Shown: one piece after another, positions 1 to 64,000 of the stretch | Position numbering within the stretch: position 1 is the stretch's first letter | Layout: each line of letters begins with the position of its first letter | Source of the DNA: Arabidopsis thaliana | Taxonomy: Eukaryota; Streptophyta; Magnoliopsida; Brassicales; Brassicaceae | Assembly: GCF_000001735.4 (NCBI RefSeq) | Contig: NC_003070.9 | Location: forward strand, 16,973,971-17,037,970 | Length of the DNA stretch: 64,000 nt | Reading direction: 5' to 3' | Position numbers and translations under genes: made by a program | Notes under the pieces: model-generated | Database searches by the model: none | What the model saw: the letters and a program-made list of their open reading frames with translations, nothing else | What the model was told of the DNA's origin: nothing

Positions 1-487
1 GGTGTCCAGAGAACTCTAAGAGAGGTATTAAAGAACATTTGAGTCAGTTGTTTTGTGAGCTTGTATCTATGGAATTCTGATGTCTGAATTGATGAAAACT
101 CGGTTATTCCTGTGCAGAGTTTCAAACGGTACATTACATACAAAAAGGACTTCAACTCATTGCTGCTCGTTCTTCTCAAAGAGCTCGTAAAGAACGCCTT
201 GAAGTTTGAAGAAATCATTTCAGGATCGAACTCAGGACTACCTACAATCGAGGTTAAGATAGAGGAACTGCAGACAAAGGTAAGTTATCATATGGTTAGG
301 CTAAATTTAGAAGTATGATTCTTAATACCTTTTTAACAACTCTTATGTCTTACATTTGCAGGCCAAGGAATACGACATTGCAGATCTACGACCCTTCTTT
401 TCAAGCACAGATTTTTCCAAAGCTCACTTCGAGTTGGATCATGGCCGAGGAATGATCAAGTGTCCAAAAAGGCTGATCACTTGGTAA
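1..487 (+). CDS. MCM2: MCM2 replicative helicase subunit, C-terminal end only
   Basis: Last three coding exons of a DNA replication licensing factor MCM2, a subunit of the MCM2-7 helicase that acts in the nucleus at origins. Visible exons are 1-24, 118-279 and 362-487, with GT-AG introns and frame preserved (312 nt including the TAA at 485-487). The residues GVQRTLRE, SFKRYITYKKDFN and DLRPFFSS match the C-terminal winged-helix region of eukaryotic MCM2 (the human counterpart reads VMRSMRK then TFARYLSFRRDNN). The AAA+ core, Walker motifs and start codon lie left of the window, so the gene is partial because of the window edge, not broken. From memory it is At1g44900. Its promoter, normally an E2F target, is outside the window. 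Confidence 0.9.
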
Positions 488-1959: not shown

Positions 1960-4900
1960 ATGGCGAATAATCCTCCGCAGTCTTCTGGTACCCAGGTTTG
2001 CTCTCTCTTTTAGTCGTTTCATGCTTCTATGGAATTCGAAGTCACTCAGAAGTCACTCAATTGATATGTTCTAAGTAATTTGATTTAGCCAAATATAGTT
2101 GATCAATTTCAAGCGTGTTAGGGTTCTTTGATCTTAGTCTCTTTCATTGTTTAATAGCTTGGAGCATTCACTCAATTGATATGTTGTCGCGCCTAAGTGT
2201 CAGAATCAAACATTCAATAGCTGTTATTTGGTGAAAGTTTTGTTTTAGTGTAATAGTTAGTGTGTGAACTATTGGATGTGCTTATGAGACCCTTTTCCAG
2301 CAGTTTCGGCCGATGGTACCTGGACAGCAGGGTCAGCATTTTGTTCCTGCAGCTTCACAACCTTTTCACCCTTATGGACATGTACCTCCAAATGTTCAAA
2401 GTCAGCCTCCACAGTATTCTCAGCCGATACAGCAGCAGCAGCTCTTTCCAGTGAGACCAGGTCAGCCTGTGCATATTACATCATCCTCACAGGCTGTATC
2501 AGTTCCGTATATTCAAACGAACAAGATTCTCACTTCTGGATCTACTCAACCACAGCCAAATGCACCTCCAATGACGGGCTTTGCTACATCTGGACCTCCA
2601 TTTTCTTCTCCATATACTGTGAGCTTCTGCTTTTTTCTTGTATTTGTTATTCGGATAACTTTTTATATATGATTCGTTTTCACTTTGCTGGATTCTTGTT
2701 CCTGCAGTTTGTACCATCATCTTATCCTCAGCAACAACCAACATCCTTGGTCCAACCAAATTCTCAGATGCATGTAGCTGGCGTCCCTCCAGCAGCAAAC
2801 ACTTGGCCTGTTCCTGTTAATCAAAGCACATCACTTGTTTCCCCTGTGCAGCAGACTGGGCAACAAACACCGGTCGCAGTTTCCACAGACCCAGTAAGTG
2901 ACTACGTTTACTGATCACAAATATGTTTTGGTGACTTGTATTGATGCCTATACCTACTATTAATCATGAAACCATCTCTTACTAAAATGCGAATCATATC
3001 ATGTTGAGTTGTATTAATATATAAATTGTGACAACCAACATATGTCTTCTGCCATTTGTAGCATTTCAATCTTTTTCGCTGTATTATTTTGGGATAGTGT
3101 TTTTATCTGAATCGAGTGTTCCTCAGCTTTCTCCGAATTCTTTAGACTTAGTAATTTCATGTACTTCCTCTGGATCGTTACTTAGGTCAAACTCTGATTA
3201 GGTTTGAAAACGTAAGGTTTTGATCTAGAGAATCGTCAAACTCTTTGAAGCCTCAAGAAGCCCCTAGCACAAATTATTTCAGAACCTTGTCCTATTTATA
3301 CTCAATTACTAACTTGCTGATGTGGCATAGTTGATGAACTCTTATCGAACTCATTTGTCTAGTCTTTATGTATGCAATTGTAGCTAAATGTGCTTGTTGG
3401 ATTTTGGTAACAGGGAAACTTGACTCCGCAATCTGCATCTGACTGGCAGGAGCATACATCTGCTGATGGGAGAAAGTATGCTACTAAACTATTATTTCAG
3501 ATTTAGGCCAAATATCTTCCTACATGTCACTCTTTGTACTGTAGATTTGTGTTCATGCAGTTCCAATTTGAAATTGATTACTTTTAGTTGGAAATTGTTT
3601 GTAAGCTTCTTACTTTTTGTACCTTTCATAAGGTCTTCCATGCTTCCTTTTTTTTTTTTTTTTTTCCATGCAGATGTCTGTTTCATGGTTTTGGGTCTAT
3701 GAATTCGCTTTATCTGATATATACTTATCTTTCTAGGTATTATTATAACAAGCGGACAAAGCAATCAAATTGGGAAAAACCTCTTGAACTGATGACACCA
3801 CTTGAGGTAATACTTACAAAGTAGTCTGTCTTCTAAGATGATTTTCATTTTACTGGTTGATTAAGCTTACCAGGCTTTTAGTTGGTGTGCCACTTCACTA
3901 GTGATGTAAATGGTTGCAGCTTTGTCTGGAACAACGTTGTTTAATTTGTATATTTTTTTCACTGATTCGGAAACTCCATAACTGTGGAGATATTTATTAA
4001 GACTGCTACGTGCTCATCTGAAAGCAGCTTTCACTTTATTGAAACAGGCTACCGATGCTTTTCTGTTTCTCATTTTTTTTTTTTTGTGTAAATCGGTGTC
4101 AACTTTGTAGGCAGTTTGGGGATAATTTGCTAATTTTTTATGCTCGTTGGATTAAGAATCTCCTGATAATCCTTATTTCGTTTTTATATTAAGATCAAAT
4201 CTACCGTATCTATGCATGATTTTACAGTTTCTAAAATCTCTTTCTGCAGAGGGCTGATGCATCCACTGTATGGAAGGAATTTACAACACCTGAAGGAAAG
4301 AAGTATGCATCTTTAAATTTCATTTAGTCTTTGTATCATGCTTATTCTCTATTGTTGCAACTGATTAGTTGTTTTAATTTACGCAGATATTATTATAACA
4401 AGGTTACAAAGGAGTCTAAGTGGACAATTCCGGAAGATTTAAAGGTCTACCTATTTATCTCTCTCTCATGCACATTCCCCAATGCAAAGCCTATGTTAAA
4501 CCTGGGTAGTTGTTGTATGCAGTTAGCTCGGGAACAAGCCCAACTAGCTAGTGAAAAAACGTCCCTTTCGGAAGCTGGATCTACCCCTCTATCCCACCAT
4601 GCTGCATCCTCGTCTGATCTAGCAGTTAGCACTGTGACTTCTGTTGTTCCCAGCACATCTTCAGCACTTACTGGACATTCTTCAAGCCCTATTCAAGCGG
4701 GTTTGGCTGTACCTGTCACCCGTCCTCCCTCTGTTGCTCCTGTTACTCCAACATCTGGTGCAATTAGTGACACTGAGGCTACTACAATGTACTATTTTTC
4801 CTTGGGAAGTTTTGTTTGATGTTTATACACTCTGTCAAGCCTTTGAATTTAACTGTTGTGCCTATCATAACAGAAAAGGCGATAATTTATCATCTCGGGG

Positions 4901-9258: not shown

Positions 9259-10438
9259 TCACCATCGTCTTATCAATGAAGTAAGCAACTGCAACAACAT
9301 ACATGAATTCACACATCATTCATTAGCATCACCTTTGAACAAACACGGTAAATACTGAAACAGATGTAAGCAAATGTTCCAACTTTCTTCTTGGACTTAG
9401 GAGAATGCATTCACATACCTCAAATAGCTCGAATGCACTACCCTTCCGATACGTATCATCTTTCTTCTTGGACTCTGTAGGAAGCACACTGAATAACAAT
9501 GCTCTCCATCCTATAAGTAAAACAGCAGTACTTCCCATTGTCACCAACACAAAGCTATATGCCGGAATGTGACCTGATGAAGCTGACCTAATGATAATTC
9601 CAAGCTGTAACGAAAGGAACAAGCTTTAAACAGTTTAGTAGAGATACCAACACCCTAAACCTACAATGTCAAAAAGATTGGTAAATGTCGCCTTACCGGA
9701 GTTCCGACAATCCAAGATTTCGCAGCTGCAACCACAGCTTTAGACTTTCCCTTCATTCCTCGTCCTTCCTCCGCATAACCCCCCAAGAAATAAGCACTCA
9801 GAAACCATCCTGCCACATAAAGTTTCCATTTTTACTTGAAACAAAGCTTCTCAAACGCAAGATAGATAACAGAGTAACGAAAACGAATCAATACCCGCAA
9901 TGAAAGGGTCAGCTGTGTGGAGAGTATCAAGAGAAAAAACAGGGAAACCATGGCTAAATCTCCCAATGGCAGAGAAGATAAGCAGAGCTAAAACATCACC
10001 ACCCGCAAGTAAAGCCACACGACTGAAAGAAACAACACAAAACATTTGAGATAACAATACAAAAGCAATCCTTCCTCTAGAGAGACTAAAACAAAGTAAA
10101 GTTAGAGTTTTTAATTACCCCCATTTGGTAATGTTAGAAGATGAAGTAGATGACGGTTTATCGAATTGAATCACGCCCTCGAGAGGAACATTATCTTGAC
10201 CCACGAAAACTGTTTCATCTCCTGAAGAAGGGATTTGAGAAGCTGAGGTTGAGGGTTTTGAGTTGACGCTTCCGTCGGGGTTAGAGAGAGCGAGGACGAC
10301 GCGGGGACGACTCCGGTGAGTGTTTGGTGCAGGGAGGAGCCATGAATCGGGAGAAGAGAAAGGAGAAGGTTTGGATTTGGTGATGAATCTGACGGCGGAG
10401 ACAGGTCCGGTGGGAGTGCGAAGAACTAACATTCTCAT
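9259..10438 (-). CDS. DUF3054 family protein, predicted plastid membrane protein
   Basis: Five exons on the minus strand: 10438-10119, 10022-9895, 9809-9697, 9604-9419 and 9288-9259. They sum to 777 nt, giving 258 residues with every junction in frame. The first about 90 residues are Ser/Thr/Pro-rich and acidic-poor at the start (MRMLVLRTPTGPVSAVRF), typical of a chloroplast transit peptide. The core has the DUF3054 pattern: RVALLAGGDVLALLIFSAIG, DPFIAGWFLSAYFLGGY, SWIVGTPLGIIIRS and a final hydrophobic SYSFVLVTMG-like helix, ending in LLTSLIRRW. DUF3054 proteins occur in cyanobacteria, actinobacteria and plants as four-helix membrane proteins of unknown function. The tiny last exon (30 nt) is easily missed but restores the conserved ending. 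From memory At1g44920. Confidence 0.9.
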
Positions 10439-11130: not shown

Positions 11131-11875
11131 TCAACGTTAATGGTGGGGCAAACGGTTATATCGGTTGGTGACGGTCTTGTTTCTCTGACGATAATGAGGT
11201 GCGGTTGTTCCGCCTTCTAATGCGAGTTGTGGTGAACTTCCCGACGACTTTACGCATCCTTCTAGTCGTACCACTGATTTAAAGACACCAAAAGAGGGAC
11301 TAAAGAAAGTTGTCAGCTCACTTGTCGGAAGGGCTGTTGCAACTGGCGGCGGAAGTCAAAGACGGGTTGGTGGGGTTCACTACGAGTCGAGACGATTAGC
11401 GCCAGATTTGTCGGATCTGAGGTGGCTAGGTGTGCAGAGGCGGTTAGGATTTTATTTGAGTCAACCGCTCTAATCATTGTTTTCGTGTGACCGGATTTGA
11501 GGTTGTGGCGGTCATAGAGGAAACTTGTGCTGGTTTCGGCGATGGAGGTGAGAGTTCGATTTAGGTTTTCGGTTACTTGGGTGGGGACTGGTTAAGCGGG
11601 TCTATTGTTTATTGTGAGAATTTTCAGGTCGGCTCTGATGTTGGCTTCGGGTTAGTGGCGAGAATCGATAACTTTGGTCATGTCGCTCGAGTCGTGTAGG
11701 AGCAGCAACGAAGGCCTATTGCTATCGCCGGAGTTGGAGGTGGAGCCGGTGTTGCAGAATTAACAGACTTTTTCAGATTTTTGTGCTTGTGTTGACTAAA
11801 TTTTCCTTTCTCTTTTTATACCGATTAGCCTGTATAAACCTAATATTGTAATGCCCATTGAGAAAAATTAATTTT
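11131..11875. other. Unclassified G/C-enriched relic
   Basis: A sharply bounded stretch of markedly higher G+C (many GGTGG, GTCGG and GGAGGTGGAGC words) inside very AT-rich DNA. It closes with an mRNA 3'-end-like tract (TTTTTATACC, then TGTAATGCCC). Every frame is interrupted within a few dozen codons. It looks like a heavily mutated transposon or retroposed gene fragment, but I cannot name the family. Confidence 0.35.
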
Positions 11876-12065
11876 TTAAAAAAGATATTTACAAATCATA
11901 TTCCTATTTTTTTCTTATTCATTGGTGGCTGGCTCGGTTAAAAACTCATTTTCACAAGACCGATGCCTTTCCTTTTTTTATATAACACTCATCACTATTG
12001 TGCAGCTTAAAAGAAGATTGGCTCATTGTCGCTTTCCATTGAAGAGATCGAGTCCTCAGGTTATA

Positions 12066-13377
12066 GGCCATGTTCGTTTGTACACCTGGATAATGCATCC
12101 AGATGATCCACCTAAATGATGCATTTGAGTGTTCTTTGTTTCCTAATCCGGTAGTCCATCTAGATGAAGCATCTAAATGAATCTTTGTTCGTTTGATTAG
12201 TTTATTACAATTTGTATCTGTATCTAAATGCATGTTGTATTAAAATGACTAAAAATGACATATCTTCATTTAAATCATACTTTTTAGTTTCGGAAAGAAA
12301 ATATTATAGTTTTGATGAAAAAATGCAATTTTATAACTTTGGAAGAAAATGTCATTCTCAAATTTTTTGGTTTTGGCGGGAAAACGCAATTATGCAACTT
12401 TTTCGTTAAAATAGTGATTTTATATGATTTTACGTTTTTGGCGAGAACACGTAAGTCCACCATTTTCCCGCAGAATCATGATTTTATAGTTTTGGAGGGA
12501 AAATATGATTATACGGTTTTGGCGGGAAAATGTAATTCCGCAAATTTCTCGCTAATTTGCGATTTTATTGTTTTGGCGAAAAATATGATTTTTACGCTTT
12601 TGGCGGGAAAACAAAATTCTGTAATTTTCCCGCTAAACCATGATTTTATAGTTCTGGCGGGAAAATATGATTTTACGGTTTTGGCGGGAAAACAAAAATT
12701 TTCAATTTTCCCGCTAAACAGTGATTTTATAGTTTTGGCGGAAAAATATGATTTCACGGTTTTGGCGGAAAAAACGCAATTCCGCAATTTCCCGCTAAAC
12801 CGTGATTTTATAGTTTTGGCGAGAAAATATGATTTTATGGTTTTGGCGGGAAAACGCAATTATGTAAATTTCCCGCTAATTCGTGATTTTATAGTTTTGG
12901 CGAGAAAATATGATTTTACATTTTAAGGCGGAAAAACGAAATTCCGTAATTTTCCCACTAAATTATGATTTTATAGTTTGACGGGAAAATATAATTTTAT
13001 GGTTTTGGCGGAAAAACGTAATTCCGTAATTTTTCCGCCAAAATTATAATTGTCGGTTTTGTTTAAATTTGGTATTTGTGATTTTACAATTTTTAGAGGT
13101 TTTAAAATATAAAATGAAAAAACTAGAAAATAATTAACATTATTTGATTTATGATGTAATTTTTTAGTTTAATAAGGGTATTTTAGTAATTTACAATTTT
13201 TTACTATGCATCATCTAAAATCATCTGAATGCATCTTATAAAATAGACATTTTTTGGATGAGTCTGAGAAACGCATCTGGATACTCCACCCAACTTATAT
13301 GCAAAATTGTACTGAAACGAACATCAATTTGCATCTACGGCTAGTTGCATCAGTGAGATGAGCAAACGAACATGACC
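12066..13377. mobile_element. TIR element (Harbinger- or hAT-like, non-autonomous) carrying an E2F-site minisatellite
   Basis: The left end reads GGCCATGTTCGTTTG and the right end, reverse complemented, reads GGTCATGTTCGTTTG, a 15-bp TIR with one mismatch. ATA flanks both ends (12063-12065 and 13378-13380), fitting a 3-bp target duplication. Both subterminal zones are rich in TGCATC/GATGCA motifs, as expected of transposase-binding subterminal repeats. The middle is an 81-bp minisatellite (see separate entry). There is no transposase gene. GGCC..GTTCG ends and a 3-bp duplication favour PIF/Harbinger, but the family is not certain. Confidence 0.7.
12360..13045. repeat. 81-bp minisatellite with repeated E2F consensus sites
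   Basis: About eight tandem copies of an 81-bp unit. The word TTTTGGCGGGAAAA occurs exactly at 12517, 12598, 12679 and 12841 (spacing 81 or multiples of it) and also at 12371. Degenerate versions sit at 12436, 12760 and 13003. Each unit also has a second GGCG(G/A)GAAAA copy and an opposite-strand TTTCCCGC copy. TTTGGCGGGAAA (reverse TTTCCCGCCAAA) is the canonical E2F/DP binding site. Because 81 is a multiple of three, long spurious reading frames run through the array on both strands. Confidence 0.9.
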
Positions 13378-14200
13378 ATATATGAAAGTTGTCTTTTCTT
13401 TAACAAACTAAAAACCAGCTTGTAAGGAAAGAAAAGAATGTAAAATAAAGAAGGTTGCTCAGATTCTTGCTGAAAAGGTTGAAAAATATCAAAACAGATA
13501 AGAATGAAACAGATTATCAGAATTAGTGAATCAGTTTGAACGTTAAGGGGTTTGCAAAGTGTGTAGAGGAGAAGAGTACAGTCAATTGGGTAAACCACAT
13601 GACCATGAAAGAATCTTTGACGGACATGTTGAGCATGCCTACTAACTTATATCCTCTATTGAATTTTGTTTGTAAATGAAATACCTATTTTTATTTAAGA
13701 AATAGATTTAAATGTCTCAAAAGCAATCTAAAACGTTAATAAGTATATTTTGTTAAAATACAAATCTATATATACATTTTTGCAAGACTTTTTTGAAGAT
13801 AATGTTGAAGATTTGAGTCATAATTCAAGAATTATTTCAAATAGGTGGGTATAACCCGGTTTAACTCTGTTCGGATCCTGGATAACATGTTTAATTCTGT
13901 TTTGATCTTGGATAAAATTAATTTTTGAAAAAGTTACCTAAAAAATAATAATTAAAAACGAAATTAATGATTTAATTACCAAATCTAATATAAATAGTAT
14001 CTCTAAACTAACCATATTTGTTATTTACCTTAACTAATTTCTTATAATAATTCTACCTAATTTAAACCTAAATATATAATTCTTCTTTCACTTTTATTTG
14101 ATCTTATACTTTATTTATTTTGAATTTATATAGTTAATAAAATATTATATTTTATTCTGTATATGATGTAATTTAAATGTTTTTAAACGGACATATATTA
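13378..14200. other. AT-rich intergenic DNA
   Basis: Low-complexity A/T-rich sequence with no coding potential. A short direct repeat (GGTTTAACTCTGTTCGGATC then TGTTTAATTCTGTTTTGATC near 13,858-13,910) is the only local structure noticed. Confidence 0.4.
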
Positions 14201-14830: not shown

Positions 14831-15977
14831 AGGACCAAAATGATTTCGATTACGAATGAGCATGAAAATTGATTTATGAGGTGTCCAAAATTAAAATGGT
14901 TTGTTTACTAGGGTTCTTTATTTTAAAGAATTGAAACTTTAAAAAGTTTCAAAAAAATTATAAATTAAATTTTACAAGAAATTTAAACAAAATAAAAGAT
15001 ATTAATACGGGACGATATACTACAAGAGAAATCTTAGATATATTGCGAGAGAAATCCTAGATATAACAATCAAAATTCAATGATGAAGTTTGGGTCAATA
15101 TTAATCTTTTTTGAAGTTTCTAATTTTATAAATATTTGAAATTTATAATAAAATGACAAATTTGTGTTTAATTTCACGGGACGGGGTTATATGGTGTGAC
15201 AGGTTTGAATGGATAATAACATGGGATGATATGTTACAGAAAAAACCCTATAATTAACAATCATAATATAATTATACAATCTTAAACACTAAACAAAATT
15301 AACAATATTAAAAAAAAAACACTTAAAACTTTATTTTTTTTAAAACACATTTCGATTATTTTATAAGAAATTTAAACATTATAAATATTTAAACTTTATA
15401 CTACGGATGAAATTTTAGAATTGACTGGTTTGGGTTGATAATAATTTGCGATAGAATTAGGAGTTAAATCCTAGAATGACAATCAAAATATAATTATACA
15501 ATTAAATACTACCTCAGATGAAATCCTAGAATTGACGGGTTTGAATCGATATTAATATGGGATGGTGTACTACGAGTGAAATTTTAGAATTGACTGGTTT
15601 GGATTGATAATAATTTGCGATAGAACTAGGAGTGAAATCCTAGAATAACAATTAAAATATAATTATACAATTAAATACTACCACGGGTGAAATTCTATAA
15701 TTGACGGACTTGATTCGATATCAATATGGGATGGTGTACTACGGGTAAAATCCGAGAAACAACAATCAAAATACAATTATACAATATTAAACATTTAACA
15801 AAATAAACAAATACAACTTAAAACTTTAAAATTTGAATTATAAAATTTTGTCTCGCGATGAATTATACATTTAAATCAAACAATAGCATAAATTTATTAA
15901 ATCATCCTACAAAGTATTCTATTATTTTTTATTTAATAAAAATATAGGCACGCGGTATACCACAAATTAATATCTAG

Positions 15978-49945: not shown

Positions 49946-50445
49946 TGAAAGTAAGAGCAAGACGGCTACTTTAGGTAATGTTTGAATGAACTTTCCTTTT
50001 GATATTATTTCACTTGAGTTCTAGGTTACATCACAAGTTCCCTTTTATAGCTAAACAATGCTAGGGTTTCAATCATTGTGAACTGACAAATGTCTCAATC
50101 TTGTTATGCTACGCATGTCATCAAGCAATCAAATTTGTTCTCTGTGATGATTGGAGCCGTACAACAAGCGCTCCTCTTCTCTGTCATTATTCTGGCTTTG
50201 TTCTCTTGCACAGGTGGACTTAGCCGTTGAGAAGATGAAGAAGACTTGTTGGGCTTCTCAGACTTGCTGGGCTTCTCATTTAAGTTGATATTGGACTTGT
50301 TAGGTAAGTGGCCCAATATCCCTTTCTCTTTGTTTACTGCAACGACATCGTCTTGACTCCTTGACTTTCAGCTGCATCTGAGTTCTTCTTCGATCTTGTT
50401 TCAGATTCAGGAGCTGAAGGCGGAGCAGTAGAGCTCTTGCTAATA
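49946..50445 (-). repeat. 3' LTR of the copia element
   Basis: 500 bp, same length and almost the same sequence as 54788-55287. On the minus strand it starts TATTAGCAAGAGC and ends ACTTTCA. Confidence 0.93.
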
Positions 50446-51095
50446 TCCCCCTGCAAACCCGGTGTGGGTGGCACAACTACACCGAGTTTGTACCTGAGAG
50501 ATGTAAACGCATTGAACGGAAGCGATTTAGTGAAGATGTCTGCGATCTGCTCATGACCAGGTATGTGTCTGACTTCCAACAGTCCAAGAGCCACTCTTTC
50601 TCTCACATAGTGATAGTGGTTCTCGAAATGCTTTGTTCTCTTGTGAAACGCTGGATTTGCTGTTAGGTAGACCGCAGAGAGATTGTCGCAGTATAGTTGT
50701 GGTGGTTTTAGAAGGGGTACTCGCAATTCCTTCATAATTGAGCTGAGCCATGTGATTTCAGAAGCTGCTTCAGAGAGAGTTCTGTATTCTGCTTCAGTGG
50801 AGCTCTTTGACACAGACGACTGCTTCTGAGAAGACCAGGAGATAAGGTTCAGACCCAGATAAGTGAAGTAGCCTCCGGTTGATCGTCTTGTTTCAGGACA
50901 ACCAGACCAGTCACTGTCACTATAAGCTCGTAATGTGCAATCTGACTTCTTCCTGAAGTTTATTCCCATAGTAACTGTACCCTTAACATATCTTAAAATC
51001 CTTTTCAGCAACAAGAAATCCAGAGTAGTAGGAGCATGCATCTTTTGGTAAACATAGTTCACTGCAAACTGAATATCAGGTCTGGTAAGAGTCAA
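50334..51095 (-). pseudogene. Copia RNase H region (fossil)
   Basis: Recognised by the copia RNase H pattern: YSDSDWSGCPETRRSTGGY, SSTEAEYR, LYCDNLSAVYLTANP and KRTKHFE..YHYVRE. It extends into the 3' LTR as usual for copia polyproteins. Confidence 0.85.
50446..50454 (-). other. Polypurine tract of the copia element
   Basis: GCAGGGGGA on the minus strand directly abuts the 3' LTR, the position where plus-strand DNA synthesis is primed. Confidence 0.7.
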
Positions 51096-51137
51096 ATATT
51101 GGAGCTTACCAGCAAGGCTGCGGAAATATGTTGGGTT

Positions 51138-52109
51138 TTAAAAGGTATCCTGATTCTGTTTCCTTTGTTTGTTTAGCTGAAGAAGCAGAGGAGTCGGCAT
51201 TGGGGCACAGTCACTCATCGATGCTGCAATGGGTAAGTCCTCTGCATACTTTTGCTGAGATAGGAATAGACCTTCAGAATGAAATTGAGCTTGAATTCCC
51301 AAGAAATAATGCATCTGACCCATATCTTTCATCTTGAATCTTTTGTTGAGTTCTGCAAGGAGAGAGGCAAGTGTTTCTGAGCTGTTTCCAGTAATCAGCA
51401 TATCATTGACATACAGGAGAAGAAGAATGATGTCTTTTCCTCTGCTGTAGACGAATAGAGATGGATCTGGAATGCTGCAGTGAAACCCAAATTCCAAGAG
51501 GTATGTACTGAACTTGTCAAACCATGCTCTAGGTGACTGTTTCATCCCGTACAAAGATTTATGAAGATGACAGACATAATTTGGTTTGTCTGGATCTACA
51601 AAACCTGCAGGTTGAGCCATATAGACTGTTTCTGTTAAGTCACCATGGAGAAATGCATTTTGCACGTCCATCTGCTTGATATCCCACTCCATAATCGTTG
51701 CAAGATGTAGAACTCCTCTCACAGTAGCTGTTCTGACGACTGGACTGTAAGTTTCTAAGTAATCTATCCCTTCAGCTTGATTATAACCTTGTGTTACTAA
51801 CCTTGCTTTCAGCTTTTGCAGGGATCCATCTGCATTTAGTTTGGTCCTGAAAATCCATTTGCTGCCTAAAACAAGCATGTCTGGTGTATAAGGAACCAGA
51901 GACCAAGTTTCAGCTTCTTTGCAATTTCCCATTTCTTCTCCCATGGCACCTGTCCATCCTGGGTCTTTTAGAGCTGCAGCAACTGTCTTAGGTTCAGGGT
52001 AAGACACTTTGTGAGTCAGTAAAGCATATCTTGGGTTTGGCTTTCTGATCCCACTCTTTTGTCTTGTGGTCATAGGGTGAGTAGACTGAGTTACAACAGG
52101 CTCTTGCAC
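51138..52109 (-). pseudogene. Copia reverse transcriptase region (fossil)
   Basis: RVT_2-type copia reverse transcriptase: KDPGWTGAMGEEM, LVPYTPDMLVLGSKWIFRTK, KARLVTQGYNQ, QMDVQNAFLHGDLTETVYM, LYGMKQSPRAWF and the LLLYV..ML active-site region. Confidence 0.9.
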
Positions 52110-52115
52110 AGGTTC

Positions 52116-53589
52116 TTAACTAGGTAACATTTCTTCTTGACTTTCATTTTGAGTTGTTGTTGTTGATAACTGATCTAATATTCTTTCTGTAGACTGATCT
52201 GACGTTTCTTCTGCAATACCAGGACTGTGAGAAGAAGAAGAGAAGTTGTTGCCTATAGGAACATGATCTAAGCCCGCCGTACACCCATAACTTCTTTCCT
52301 CTTCCACAGCAGGTACTACAGTCGGTCTTGGTATTGGTATTGGTAGTATAGGTGTTTCTCTTGTAGGTAGTGGAGGAAAATCTTCACTTGTGAATAAACT
52401 GTCATCTGATTTAGGTTGAGGTTTACTTACTGTGTTGATTCCCTTTGTCCAGGCTAGCATCAAAGGAGTAAGACTTCCTGAATTTGGTCTTGAATGAGAC
52501 TGAGCAAAAGGGAAGACAGTTTCATCAAAGATGACATGGCGACTGATGTAAACCCTTCCAGTTGAAGGTAAGAAGCACCTGTACCCCTTGTATTTATCAT
52601 TATAACCCAGAAACACACACTTGAGTGATCTAGGATCAAACTTGTTAGACGCATAATCTCTCAAGGTGGGATAGCAGGCACAACCAAAGACTCTGAGTGC
52701 TGAGTATTCTGGAGGCTTACCATGCAGCTTCTCATAAGGACTGTACTTCTCATCTAGAGCTGTTGTAGGAAGGAGATTGATTAAGAAACTCGCAGTGTAG
52801 AAGGCTTCTACCCAAAACTTCTGAGGACGGGTACTCTGAAACATCATTGAGAGACCAAGTTCAATAATGTGTCTATGTTTTCTTTCAGCTAACCCATTCT
52901 GTTGTGAAGTGTAGGGACAAGAGATAAGCTGTTTGATCCCGCATTGTTGTAGGTGATCAGTTAGCTTTCTGCTTGTGAACTCTCCCCCTCCATCACACTG
53001 GAAAGATCCAATCTTGGTTTGATATTGATTTTCAACCATATCTTGGAACACAGTAAAGGTATGAGTAAAGTCTGATTTGAGCTTTAATGGGTAGAACCAG
53101 CAAAATCTTGAGTAGTTATCAATGAACACTGCATAATAACTGAATCCTTGATTTGATTTAATAGGTCAAGGACCCCAGAGATCACAGTGTATTCTCTCTA
53201 GAGGTCTAGTAGCTACAAAAAGTTGAAGCAGAAAAAGGGAGTCTAACACTTTTCCCAAGCTGGCAAGACTCACACACCATCTTGGTACTTTTATTTCCAA
53301 CACTGATAGATTTGTTTGCAGATAGCACTTGAAGGACTTGAGAGTGAGGATGCCCCAGTCGTTGATGCCATATATCTTCACTCGCTCCTTGCTGTCTTGA
53401 AGAGTAGAGTGCTTGAACTGGTGAGTCCTTCAACACATAAAGTCCCTTACTATGCTTTCCCTTTGTCAACAGTTTCCTTGTTGCCTTATCATAGATTCGA
53501 ACATCATCACAGTCAAATTGAAATACGCAGGGATAGTCATTGGTGAGCTTGGAAACTGACAAAAAGGGTTTAGAGATATCAGGACACAC
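52116..53589 (-). pseudogene. Copia integrase region (fossil)
   Basis: GAG-pre-integrase zinc motif WHQRLGHPHSQVLQVL and CESCQLGK, followed by an rve-type integrase core (HCDLWGP, FIDNYSRFCWFYPLK, FQCDGGGEFTS, SCPYTSQQNGLAERKHRHI) and the usual post-core FGCACYP and LKCVFLGY segment. Confidence 0.88.
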
Positions 53590-53640
53590 AAGAACATCAT
53601 TTAAAGGTAAGTTACCTGAAGTAGAAGGAAGACTGCCTAA

Positions 53641-54765
53641 TCATGTGTGTGTTATGGGAAGAAAGTTTCCATTTCCCACCATTACTGAGTCACTTCCTTC
53701 ATACAGCTGAGTCTGACTGAGCTTGTGAGGTGCATTGGTGATGTGAGCAGTAGAGCCAGAGTCACCTACCCATTCACCACCGGATTGATCTGTGACATCA
53801 GTTATCCTGAGTATTGCAAGAGCTGCTGGCAGATCCTCATCTTGGTAGCTGTTGTTGAACCGATGCCAACACTTCAAAGCATGATGACCAGGTTTGCCAC
53901 AGATCTGACAAATGACTCTTTCTCCATTTGAGTTTTGTGAAATTTGTTGATGAAAACCTCTACCACGTGTGGAGAATGAATCTTTGCTTTTTCCACTCCC
54001 AAATCTTTAGTTGCCTTTTCCTCGGTTGTTGTTGTTGTTGTAGTAACCAGAGGAGTCTGATCTTGAAGCATTGAAAGCCATGTGAGGTGAAGTTTCAGTA
54101 TCAGGACCATAGCTGTTCAGCCTATCAGCAAATCCTGTCAGCCTTGAAATCACACTCTCAAAGGTAGGTGGTGGCTGAGTATCCATTGAACCTTCTACAG
54201 ATGTTTTGATAGGCTCATACTCTCTACCTAACCCATGAAGTGCAGCAAATATCTTCATCTGTTCACTAACAGGACTGCCTATGGAAGCTAGCTGTTCACA
54301 AACCCTCTTTATCTCCTTAAGGTAAGTTTCCATGGATTTATCCTGTTTATCTATGGTTTGAAGCTTTCTCTGTAGCTCAAAGAGTCGTGATGAAGATACC
54401 TTATTGCAGTGTTGAGCCAAAGCATTCCAGACTTGATAGGAGGTGGCACAGTTGACAACTTCCTGCATGATGTCTTCATTCAGAGATCCCAACAGCCAGG
54501 CTCGGACTACTTGGTCAGATCTGTTCCAGGTATGATACTCTGGATTTGGTACCTCAATAGTAAGACCATCGATGTTGTTGAATGGAGTTGTTGCAGGAGG
54601 AGGCTTGAGTGACCCATTGACAAAGCCTAGAAGGTTTTGGCCAGAAAGAAAGGACTCAAACTGTGTCTTCTTAAGAGAGTAGTTTTGCTCATTGAGCTTA
54701 ACAGTGACACAGTTGGAGATGTGAAGAACAGGAGGTGAGTAGAGTTGGATAGATTGATCCATCAT
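53641..54765 (-). pseudogene. Copia gag and protease region (fossil)
   Basis: UBN2-type gag (NEQNYSLKKTQFESFLSGQ, VVRAWLLGSLNEDIM, NKVSSSRLFELQRKLQTI), a CCHC zinc knuckle (CQICGKPGHHALKCW) and the aspartic protease motif WVGDSGSTAHIT. Confidence 0.85.
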
Positions 54766-54775
54766 AGACCGCTGT

Positions 54776-54787
54776 GCTCTGATACCA
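54776..54787 (-). other. Primer-binding site of the copia element
   Basis: TGGTATCAGAGC on the minus strand, directly inside the 5' LTR. This is the standard plant site complementary to the 3' end of initiator tRNA-Met. Confidence 0.92.
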
Positions 54788-55287
54788 TGAAAGTAAGAGC
54801 AAGACGGCTACTTTAGGTAATGTTTGAGTGACTTTCCTTTTGATATTATTTCACTTGAGTTCTAGGTTACATCACAAGTTCCCTTTTATAGCTAAACAAT
54901 GCTAGGGTTTCAATCATTGTGAACTGACAGATGTCTCAATCTTGTTATGCTACGCAGGTCATCAAGCAATCAAATCTGTTTTCTGTGATGATTGGAGCCG
55001 TACAACAAGCGCTCCTCTTCTCTGTCATTATTCTGGCTTTGTTCTCTTGCACAGGTGGACTTAGCCGTTGAGAAGATGAAGAAGACTTGTTGGGCTTCTC
55101 AGACTTGCTAGGCTTCTCATTTTAGTTGACATTAGGCTTGTTAGGTGAGTGGCCCAATATCCCTTTCTCTTTGCTTACTGCAACGACATCGTCTTGACTC
55201 CTTAACTCTTCAGCTACATCTGAGTTCTTCTTCGATCTTGTTTCAGATTCAGGAGCTGAAGGCGGAGCAGTAGAGCTCTTGCTAATA
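54788..55287 (-). repeat. 5' LTR of the copia element
   Basis: 500-bp partner of 49946-50445. It is followed on the plus side by the second CTTTG target copy (55288-55292). Confidence 0.93.
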
Positions 55288-61094: not shown

Positions 61095-64000
61095 GGTAAA
61101 TTGCACACAGTAGCCATTGATCCACTTTTAATTTCAGATTTTGACAAAGTGGGCAGGGCCTTTCAGCTATTAGCCATTAAGCCAAAAACTGACCAAAATG
61201 CCCCTGACGACCTGACGAAACTGAACCCGGTTTGTACGTACGGACCGCGTCGTTGGAATCCAAAAGAACCGGGTTCGTACGTACGCTGTTCATCGACGAG
61301 AAATGCATTAAATGATTTCTGGGTTTCGGCGAAGTTGACACTTGAGATTGGAATAAAAAAAATTTAAAATTCGTTGGGCTCAGAAGTTTTTAATGCTAAA
61401 TAGTTTTGACAAGACTAAAACTCATGATTACCTATTATAATAGAGATTATATTGTAAGATATTTTGATAATTTAGATTAGAATTCTGGGTAAAAAACGTA
61501 AATCGAAATTCTGTTAAGGTGAAGAAACGAAAATCGAAATTGTGTTACGGTGAAGAATCTGAAGTTTTCAGTTGCTGTTTTACAAAGTTTGAAGGATTGA
61601 AGGGGAGACAATCTGTGTTCTGGGTAAGAAATTCGTGTTAATCCTAATTACACTTGAGAACGTGATTTGAATGATACGTTTTTAAAAATTTCTGGGTTCA
61701 TACATTGTTTTGTTGGAGATTCTATTTGTATTTGTAGATATAAATGAAAGCTCTATGTTTTGTTTAGTTAAATTTATAAGTACATAAATTGTTTTGTTAA
61801 GATTCTTTTTGTCTTCGTTGACATAAATGAAATCCTTCAAAAAAGATCTGATTTTTTTTTATTTAATGTTGGTCTGACCTGAGAAATTTATGTTGCAGGT
61901 ATGGAGTTACCTGTATTAATTATGGTTGGTGAGTGGATATACAAAGAAGAAGGTTGGAAATTTGAAGCTGAAAAAGGAAGTTTCGGACGCTGTGTACGTA
62001 TTATAGACACAACGACGTACACGGATTTGGCAAGTACAATATGTGATGTTTTCAGCTATAAGTTTAGTGAATGGAACCCTATAATAAGTTACTGGATGCC
62101 TGGAAAGATGTCTGATATGATAACAAGTAATCGCCCTCCAGTATATATTGAGAATCAAATCAGCCTGGATACATTTATGTTGATTCGTAATGGCGATCCT
62201 TTTGTTAACTTGTTTGTGTCTTTTTACCCTATCGGCAATGGAGGCAATACAGAGACAGAGGTTACAAATGTTGATGCAGCTCATAATGGTTACGAAGATA
62301 TAAATGTAGATGAGGAGGATGACATAGATGAAGGTGATGAGGATGAACATGAGGATGAGGATAATGAAGAGGACGAAGATATGGATGTACATGACGATGA
62401 CACCGATGGTGAAAGCCGTGGAAGTACACTCGACCCTACAGTAGACTTTAGTGAAGGTAGTAGCGAAGAATACGATTACAATAAATGGGGTGACATGAAT
62501 GTGGAACAATATGGAAATGGTCATGTTGAGGAGGGCGTCGTGAATGACACTCAACATACCGTGGAACCCCCAGGGGAATTCACTCGTCTATTGGCATCGT
62601 GTACGTCGACGGGTACACATGTACCTCATGTAGAACCCACTGGTGTTTTGGTTGACTGTACACCAACCTCTGCTCCATCCCCGACGTGTCAACATGGTTT
62701 GTACCAATGTACGTACACTAGAGTCTGTGCAGAGGAGACAAGATGCGAAAGTGAATTAGTTGAGCACACGGATGATATAGCTGAGAACGTAACTGGAGAT
62801 GATGGTATAGTCGTCCTAGAAGGGGTTTCTGCAAGTGGGTTAAATATTGAATCTGACGACGGTCTAGTGACAACAGGTGAAGCCTACGAAGTGTATAAAG
62901 GGTTTTCTACATTGCATAATGCTGAGAATGAGTTGCTCGATACTGATGCGGATCCTGTATTCGATGATTTAGCCAATGTTCGAGTCGATGTGACAGAAGT
63001 TGAATTGAGTACGTCAGGTCATCCGTTGTATGTGGGAAGTGTTTTCAAAAACAAGCAAGTCATACAGCAGACCATGCGACTTGTTGCAATCAAAAAGTGC
63101 TTCCGCTACAAACAAACTCGGTCATGCCCTAAAAGATTAGAGATGTTCTGCGTAGATCGCAATTGTTCGTGGCATTTGACTGCACATGTCATACCCAATT
63201 CCAAATGTTTCAAAATCACAGGGTATGATTCCATCCATGTTTGCAAGATCGACACTCGAAAGGATTATCGTAAACATGCAACTTACAAGCTTTTAGGCGA
63301 GGTTATGAAGAATAGATATAGTTCTTCGCAACGGGGTCCTAGAGCTGTAGATTTGCCTCGATTGGTCTTAAATGACCTTAACGTTCGGATCTCATATTCT
63401 TCAGCATGGAGAGCTAGAGAGGTTGCAGTAAACTCTATAAGGGGTGATGATATGGCTAGTTACAGGTTTTTACCTACATATCTGTATCTTTTACAATTAG
63501 CAAATCCCGGTACAATCTGTCATCTCCACTCCACTCCTGAAGATAAAGGTCGCCAGCGCTTCAAATATGTATTCGTTTCTCTCTCGGCGTCTATAAAAGG
63601 TTGGAAATATATGAGGAAAGTCGTTGTTGTAGACGGAACCCAGCTAGTCGGTCGTTACAAATGATGCCTCCTTATAGCATGTGCACAAGACGGGAACTTC
63701 CAAATTTTTCCATTAGCTTTTGGGGTTGTTGACGGCGAGACCGATGCTTCATGGATTTGGTTCTTTGAGAAATTATCAGAGATTGTTCCAGATACTGACG
63801 ATTTGATGATTGTCTCGGACAGGCATTCTTCCATATATAAAGGCGTTAGTGTGGTGTACCCGAAAGCCAATCATGGAGCATGTATAGTACACCTGGAGCG
63901 AAACATATCGGTGTCTTACGCAAGGTACGGTGTGTCTGGTTTATTCTTTAGCGCCGCTAAAGCGTATCGGGTTAGAGATTTTGAAAAATACTTTGAAGAG
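61095..64000 (+). mobile_element. Mutator-like element (MULE), 5' part, runs off the right edge
   Basis: It starts with GGGTAAATTGCACACAGTAG, a common MULE terminal sequence, followed by about 800 bp of leader and a MURA-type transposase gene. The leader holds two copies of a GTACGTACG-containing word (61,234 and 61,277). The right TIR and any other genes lie beyond the window. Confidence 0.8.
61901..64000 (+). CDS. MURA-type MULE transposase, partial, with an in-frame stop
   Basis: Open from 61901 to TGA at 63662-63664 (587 residues), with the same frame then continuing to the window edge. The N-terminal about 110 residues form the plant-specific domain found before many MULE transposases. 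An acidic Asp/Glu run lies near residues 133-170. A zinc-binding DNA-binding domain follows (HPLYVGSVFKNKQVIQQTMR, CVDRNCSWHLTAHVI, with further Cys/His). The MULE DDE catalytic core begins with VVVDGTQLVGRYK and continues after the TGA with CAQDGNFQIFPLAFGVVDGE and MIVSDRHSSIYKGV, containing the first two catalytic Asp. The third acidic residue and the SWIM finger would lie outside. The TGA stands where relatives have Gly (GKYKG..L), so this copy is probably inactive. Confidence 0.88.

Follow-up and report, generated by a model that had tools for sequence, protein, structure and literature searches.

Transposons that amplify E2F binding sites have been described in the Brassicaceae (Henaff 2014, Plant J 77:852, cited here through PMC4110626, PMC12595863 and PMC7956360). 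In the available text of the reviews, the carriers are MITEs (hAT, PIF/Harbinger and MULE) and Helitrons, and the sites borne by these transposons are bound by E2Fa, as seen in ChIP, and may alter the availability of E2F (PMC4110626, PMC12595863). The percentages quoted differ between the reviews, with 85% for Arabidopsis (PMC4110626), 85% for the Brassicaceae (PMC12595863) and 73% for Arabidopsis (PMC7956360). RBR has been reported at transposable elements, and its recruitment to them by E2F is described as not directly established (PMC7956360); MITEs are its targets especially (PMC7404004). In a ChIP-seq study of E2FA, E2FB, E2FC and RBR, most of the binding was located immediately upstream of gene starts, and transposons are absent from the text as far as it is available (PMC10477330).

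The element described here was found in a stretch of DNA of 64,000 nucleotides, the whole of which was analysed and is called the window below. The preliminary description of the locus had mentioned reports of an amplification of E2F sites by transposons in Brassica; according to the reviews, such an amplification is indeed published for the Brassicaceae. With elements of the class reported by Henaff the window element shares a transposable element as carrier, with E2F consensus sites inside it, the E2F word, a proposed titration or rewiring and, presumably, the plant family. It differs in that the sites form a tandem array of 27-bp and 81-bp periods inside one element, of which the reviews make no mention in their available text and which the original paper may contain. 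No description of a tandem 27/81-bp E2F array in a plant transposon, or of its identity with the Pfam family DUF321, was found in the literature searched, which does not cover the 2014 original. The kind of carrier, its motif and the idea of titration (2014) are already known; within that literature, the tandem array and the DUF321 identity would be what is added.

The element, its surroundings and its E2F words

The element occupies positions 12066-13377 (1,312 bp, without assigned strand) and is delimited by terminal inverted arms and by a sister element with similar termini. The 5' terminal inverted repeat, GGCCATGTTCGTTTG (12066-12080, plus strand), and the 3' terminal inverted repeat, which reads GGTCATGTTCGTTTG on the minus strand (13363-13377), pair at 14 of 15 bases, and the arms extend to 37 nt with 73% complementarity. 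The words TGCATC/GATGCA occur 2 and 4 times in the terminal 200 bp of the element and not at all in its middle. The trinucleotide ATA flanks the element on both sides (12063-12065 and 13378-13380, without strand) and is a putative 3-bp target site duplication, a weak one, as other small shifts also match in the AT-rich flanks; the chance of such a match of ATA with ATA is about 1 in 50 by our own estimate. The element is a non-autonomous TIR DNA transposon, and its family is by all signs Brassicaceae.

The usual target duplication of PIF/Harbinger elements is the 3-bp TWA, and it goes with a related transposase. The element resembles this group (Tourist-like) in its ends, which start with GG plus TGTTCGTTTG, and in the possible 3-bp duplication, but it differs in the flank, which is ATA instead of TWA, in the sister, which has no clear duplication, and in that a transposase was not found. 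Membership in the hAT class is not supported: with the ends placed at GG and shifts of up to 3 bp allowed, neither the element nor its sister has an 8-bp duplication with at most one mismatch, although an old one may have decayed. MITEs have terminal inverted repeats, lack coding capacity, reach high copy numbers and are usually shorter than 1000 bp (size from PMC7385995, available text). The element has terminal inverted repeats, its length is 1,312 bp, and neither of two frames that were scanned contains a transposase domain.

At the beginning of the window stands the end of MCM2, with only its last residues, the winged-helix end, at about 88-487 (plus strand) and its promoter outside the window. 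It is followed by a WW-domain gene (20.9 bits, below the cut-off of 26.9), which is taken for PRP40-like, and by a minus-strand gene for a DUF3054 protein (start codon near 10438; 110 bits from a hand-joined peptide). No gene start closer to the element was found than that of the DUF3054 gene, at a distance of 1.6 kb. The distance of about 11.6 kb from MCM2 given in the preliminary description stands (the 3' end of MCM2 is near 487), but a role for MCM2 is not supported. The element lies downstream of MCM2, and at least the PRP40-like and the DUF3054 gene intervene, so that no E2F reading of MCM2 follows from it, and a regulation of MCM2 by the element was ruled out on anatomy.

Several other features were observed in the window. 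A G+C-rich island (49-52%) overlapped by open frames lies at 11250-11749, between the DUF3054 gene and the element, and a tandem repeat with a period of 169 bp (2.1 copies), which itself contains shorter repeats, is located at 15399-15751, 2 kb downstream of the element. Minus-strand frames at 50334-54807 resemble, by eye, a Copia-type retrotransposon (integrase, reverse transcriptase, gag), and a frame at 61883-63664 has a weak match to a MuDR transposase DNA-binding domain (21.4 bits, cut-off 25).

The interior of the element is a minisatellite of E2F sites (12361-13060, plus strand), built of 27-bp units in a higher-order repeat of three units (81 bp). TRF reports it with a period of 81 (7.7 copies, 12422-13042) and with a period of 27 (20 copies, 12478-13016). 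Of the three units in each 81-bp block, A and C carry TTTTGGCGGGAAA on the plus strand and B carries the reverse-oriented TTTTCCCGCTAAA; inside most 81-bp units the orientation of the sites is +,-,+. Altogether 25 of the 27-bp units in the array bear a site, be it intact or decayed, over a length of about 700 bp. The TIR element with an internal repeat is thereby borne out, as is a period of 81 bp repeated about eight times; the single site per 81-bp unit of the preliminary description has to be replaced by a base unit of 27 bp and mostly three sites. The array with its alternating orientations also folds well as single-stranded DNA (z=-5.2, 20 shuffles).

The word TTTTGGCGGGAAAA is present in five exact copies, all on the plus strand (12371-12384, 12517-12530, 12598-12611, 12679-12692 and 12841-12854). 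Five TTTCCCGC words on the plus strand between 12464 and 12876 (starts at 12464, 12626, 12707, 12788 and 12869) represent the middle site of the 81-bp unit, which has the reverse orientation. The five exact copies and the opposite-strand words had both been noted before. All five exact copies of the window lie inside the element, as do all six of its GGCGGGAA words. Within one mismatch and in either orientation, TTTTGGCGGGAAAA was found 13 times in the element and not once in the other 62.7 kb of the window. The scan of the window for an E2F consensus that had been proposed earlier yielded ten TTTSGCGS words where 2.27 are expected for the whole window, nine of them in the element; a count of ten was reached in none of 100 shuffles. 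Of 600 random sequences generated by Markov models of the element (orders 1 and 2, 300 each), none contained more than one word within one mismatch. A variant, GGCGGAAA, occurs in the array at 12733, 12760 and 13003. Candidate degenerate units ahead of the array, at 12288 and 12310, have 4 mismatches, a level reached 56 times elsewhere in the window. The CpG observed/expected ratio is 2.24 in the minisatellite and 0.70 outside the element.

Plant E2Fs share the DNA preference of mammalian E2Fs. The HT-SELEX seeds are NTTTGGCGGGAAAN for E2F8 and WWWTGGCGGGAAA for E2F2-DP1, and the crystal structure of E2F8 was made with the preferred DNA TTTTTGGCGGGAAAA (PMC4686757, available text). The word of the array is this E2F optimum, in agreement with the earlier naming of it as the canonical site; the reference proteins are mammalian, and binding at the array is predicted from the sequence. 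The reading that is considered most likely, with a probability of roughly 0.6, is that the array is an E2F-RBR platform, with the element silenced and adding slightly to an E2F sink. Its main rival is a passive minisatellite, in which slippage amplified a 27-bp unit that contained an E2F-like word by chance, and which would be methylated, silent and unbound. This is a possible but on balance unlikely account; against it, the reviews place E2Fa and RBR in vivo at transposons with such sites (PMC4110626, PMC12595863, PMC7956360, available text).

A pattern scan recovered two IMG/VR viral contigs with similar tandem words, seemingly one locus in both orientations, and gave no match in genome contigs. 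A looser pattern recovered three prokaryote contigs with similar tandem words, unrelated in appearance, and none among the viral contigs. That unrelated prokaryote tandem repeats carry the same words speaks for the passive account, and, because plant E2F does not act there, the similar words in viral and prokaryote contigs count against the platform reading. In a Parabacteroides contig, a tandem repeat with TTTTGGCGRGAAAA words is located at 4600-4900 and is apparently an unrelated prokaryote array. Searches of phage and E. coli genomes at E 1e-5 gave no match.

A sister element and the conservation of the words

A search of plasmids for distant relatives of the element returned one record, CP036489.1, which is labelled as Rahnella aquatilis plasmid pMEM40-2 (1-49310). 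Its annotation includes repE, sopA, a resolvase and catA1 at about 25-31 kb and, elsewhere, genes with TIR, NB-ARC, LRR and PPR domains (seven CDSs scanned). Because sopA, repE and catA1 stand together with TIR, NB-ARC, LRR and PPR genes, the record is likely to be a plant BAC clone that was submitted along with a bacterial genome. The element itself points to a Brassicaceae origin of the clone.

The sister element (CP036489.1, 4711-3450) is 1,262 bp long and has the ends GGCCCTGTTCGTTTG and GGTGCTGTTCGTTTG. The similarity between the sister and the window element is 67% across 203 bp of the 5' end and 82% across 65 bp of the 3' end. The flanks of the sister, TAT/ATC, form no clear target duplication, and there is no match at the position of the ATA. 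Its interior consists of 31.3 units of 27 bp with the consensus TTTTGGCGGGAAATTGCGTTTTTCCGG (TRF), so that the E2F-site array is not confined to a single copy of the element, one sister having been found. The reverse-oriented TTTCCCGC word is absent from the sister element.

The presence of the array in both copies would also be expected if the 27-bp unit served mainly for binding of the element's own transposase or for replication-coupled movement, its resemblance to an E2F site being secondary. The array is internal, whereas the ends with their TGCATC/GATGCA words are the more usual place for transposase sites, and a transposase was not found; we regard this explanation as highly improbable.

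In a comparison from which the B units were omitted, the 13-bp site consensus of the sister is identical to that of the A and C units of the window (13/13), and the 14-bp spacer matches at 9/14 positions for A units (p=0.04) and at 8/14 for C units. Exact TTTTGGCGGGAAA words number four in the sister, which has the longer array, and five in the window element, and single sites are more decayed in the sister. The preliminary description had named sister copies with randomised words as evidence that would speak against it; the one sister retains an identical site consensus alongside its decayed single sites, and the proposal is not refuted.

The word is therefore unchanged between the consensus sequences of two diverged copies whose spacers agree at 9/14 positions, which argues against the passive minisatellite. 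Less clear is the conservation of columns within each array. In the window it is 0.913 for site and 0.857 for spacer columns (p=0.08), or p=0.55 when the six central site columns are compared with the spacer, and in the sister 0.892 and 0.852 (p=0.11), all of these p-values and those for CG retention below being optimistic, as the units are paralogues that share changes by descent. Two C units of the window array did not enter the tests: the last, a degenerate one near 13057, and that of the first block, which is missing. Of the 34 rows of the sister, 31 were used for column conservation and 30 for the comparisons of copies and of CGs, partial or gapped rows having been dropped. An uncorrected column test (p=0.001 for A, 0.055 for B and 0.04 for C) was discarded after hand correction of four shifted rows, which gave the overall p=0.08. 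Site columns are thus not significantly above the spacers in either array, as the passive minisatellite predicts.

The retention of CG dinucleotides has points on both sides. In the window, CGs are kept in 23/25 sites and, for the three spacer CGs that occur most often, in 15/27 cases (p=0.004 when units are counted; one rarer spacer CG in C units was excluded), which speaks against passive decay. Counted by eye as events of loss, the same data give 2/25 and 8/27 (p=0.08), and in the sister the ratio of kept to decayed CGs is 22:5 in sites and 36:18 in spacers (p=0.20). Many TG/CA variants are found at the spacer CGs of both arrays, as is expected of methylated DNA and in keeping with the passive account. 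These comparisons are suggestive of selection on the site words but do not establish it.

The open frame through the array and DUF321

An open frame of 212 codons runs through the array (12288-12926, plus strand) and matches Pfam DUF321 (PF03778) with 54.8 bits (cut-off 25); no other family was matched at E 0.01. The frame is open because both periods, 27 and 81, are divisible by three, and it was judged not to be a gene. It stops at 12924-12926, where a unit with an extra base occurs and the repeat continues in another frame. In the sister, the automatically annotated CDS QBJ07452.1 over the array (match at CP036489.1, 3881-4249) likewise exceeds the DUF321 cut-off, with 39.9 bits. The repeat of QBJ07452.1 drifts across frames, from FWREI at first to VLAENYVFPVLAGK in the middle and then to WWEI and GFGGK. 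A real repeat protein encoded by the array would account for the long open frame and for both DUF321 scores, but the window frame is broken by the unit that gained a base, the repeat changes frame within the sister CDS, and the divisibility of the period by three already explains the openness; such a protein is scarcely credible.

What DUF321 scores is a repeat of nine residues: (YDFTVLAGK)x9 reaches 88.2 bits. In the main scan, which used serine as the single substitute and exchanged one residue at a time in all repeats, the losses were 57 bits for V, 55 for L, 55 for K, 50 for G, 43 for A, 35 for F, 10 for T and 8 for D, and serine in place of Y gave a gain of 8 bits. V, L, A, G and K are thus the most strongly constrained of the nine positions under the serine probe. 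In the array, VLAGK is encoded by GTT-TTG-GCG-GGA-AAA, which is the E2F word; judged by the serine scan, DUF321 is thus least tolerant where the DNA spells this word. The losses were smaller with less drastic substitutions (13 bits for L to F, 22 for A to V, 23 for A to T and 9 for G to R), a change of G to E (VLAEK) raises the score by 12, to 100, and RDFI in place of YDFT costs 57 bits. As the RDFI and VLAEK scores indicate, the model also prefers particular residues outside VLAGK and accepts the GGCGGAAA variant. No match to DUF321 was obtained with the B units alone, the minus-strand frame, a hand-scrambled peptide or a peptide with VSSSK for VLAGK. The low-complexity probe peptides drew stray matches to other families, a few of them above cut-off (e.g., RtxA_C, DUF6287).

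A profile search for DUF321 in one sequence record and 14 control genomes gave no match and is uninformative on plants, and no paper with the name DUF321 was found in the literature searched. Pfam reportedly describes the family as confined to Arabidopsis thaliana. In Pfam, DUF321 has the status of a protein family without known function; the repeat here is DNA with E2F words, and DUF321 is probably a translated transposon minisatellite.

Proposed origin and role of the array

The 27-bp unit with TTTTGGCGGGAAA would have been duplicated in tandem inside an ancestral element, a step proposed because the two copies share termini and period. The unit with the reverse site may then have arisen in the window copy, and the block of three units would have been reamplified as the 81-bp repeat. 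If unmethylated, the array would most likely be bound by E2F-DP dimers with their partner RBR, and perhaps by atypical E2Fs, with a local E2F/RBR platform as the outcome. The likely effect would be an RBR-linked silencing of the element, which would also make up a minor part of an E2F sink spread over the genome, and not a regulation of MCM2. The anatomy of the element, the density of its sites and the one relative with the same array were observed directly; binding to the element, its silencing and its role in a sink are what we infer. Titration by a single locus of about 25 sites is unlikely; a family of such elements might achieve it.

It could further be proposed that selection keeps the array as a working part of the element: E2F-DP and RBR would be drawn to it in S phase, expression, silencing or excision would be tied to replication, and the number of units would tune the sink. 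This proposal fits the agreement of 13/13 site positions against 9/14 spacer positions (p=0.04), the serine probes of DUF321 and the retention of CGs in the window. The column conservation in both arrays and the comparison of CGs in the sister fall short of significance, and the proposal is held to be doubtful.

The array offers an explanation for DUF321, a Pfam entry without known function, which would be transposon DNA read as protein. Elements whose arrays hold different numbers of units would constitute a natural dose series for E2F titration by transposons and for recruitment of RBR, ideas that have been discussed since 2014. Besides the copying of elements across the genome, the multiplication of a site inside an element would be a second route by which E2F sites may expand in plants.
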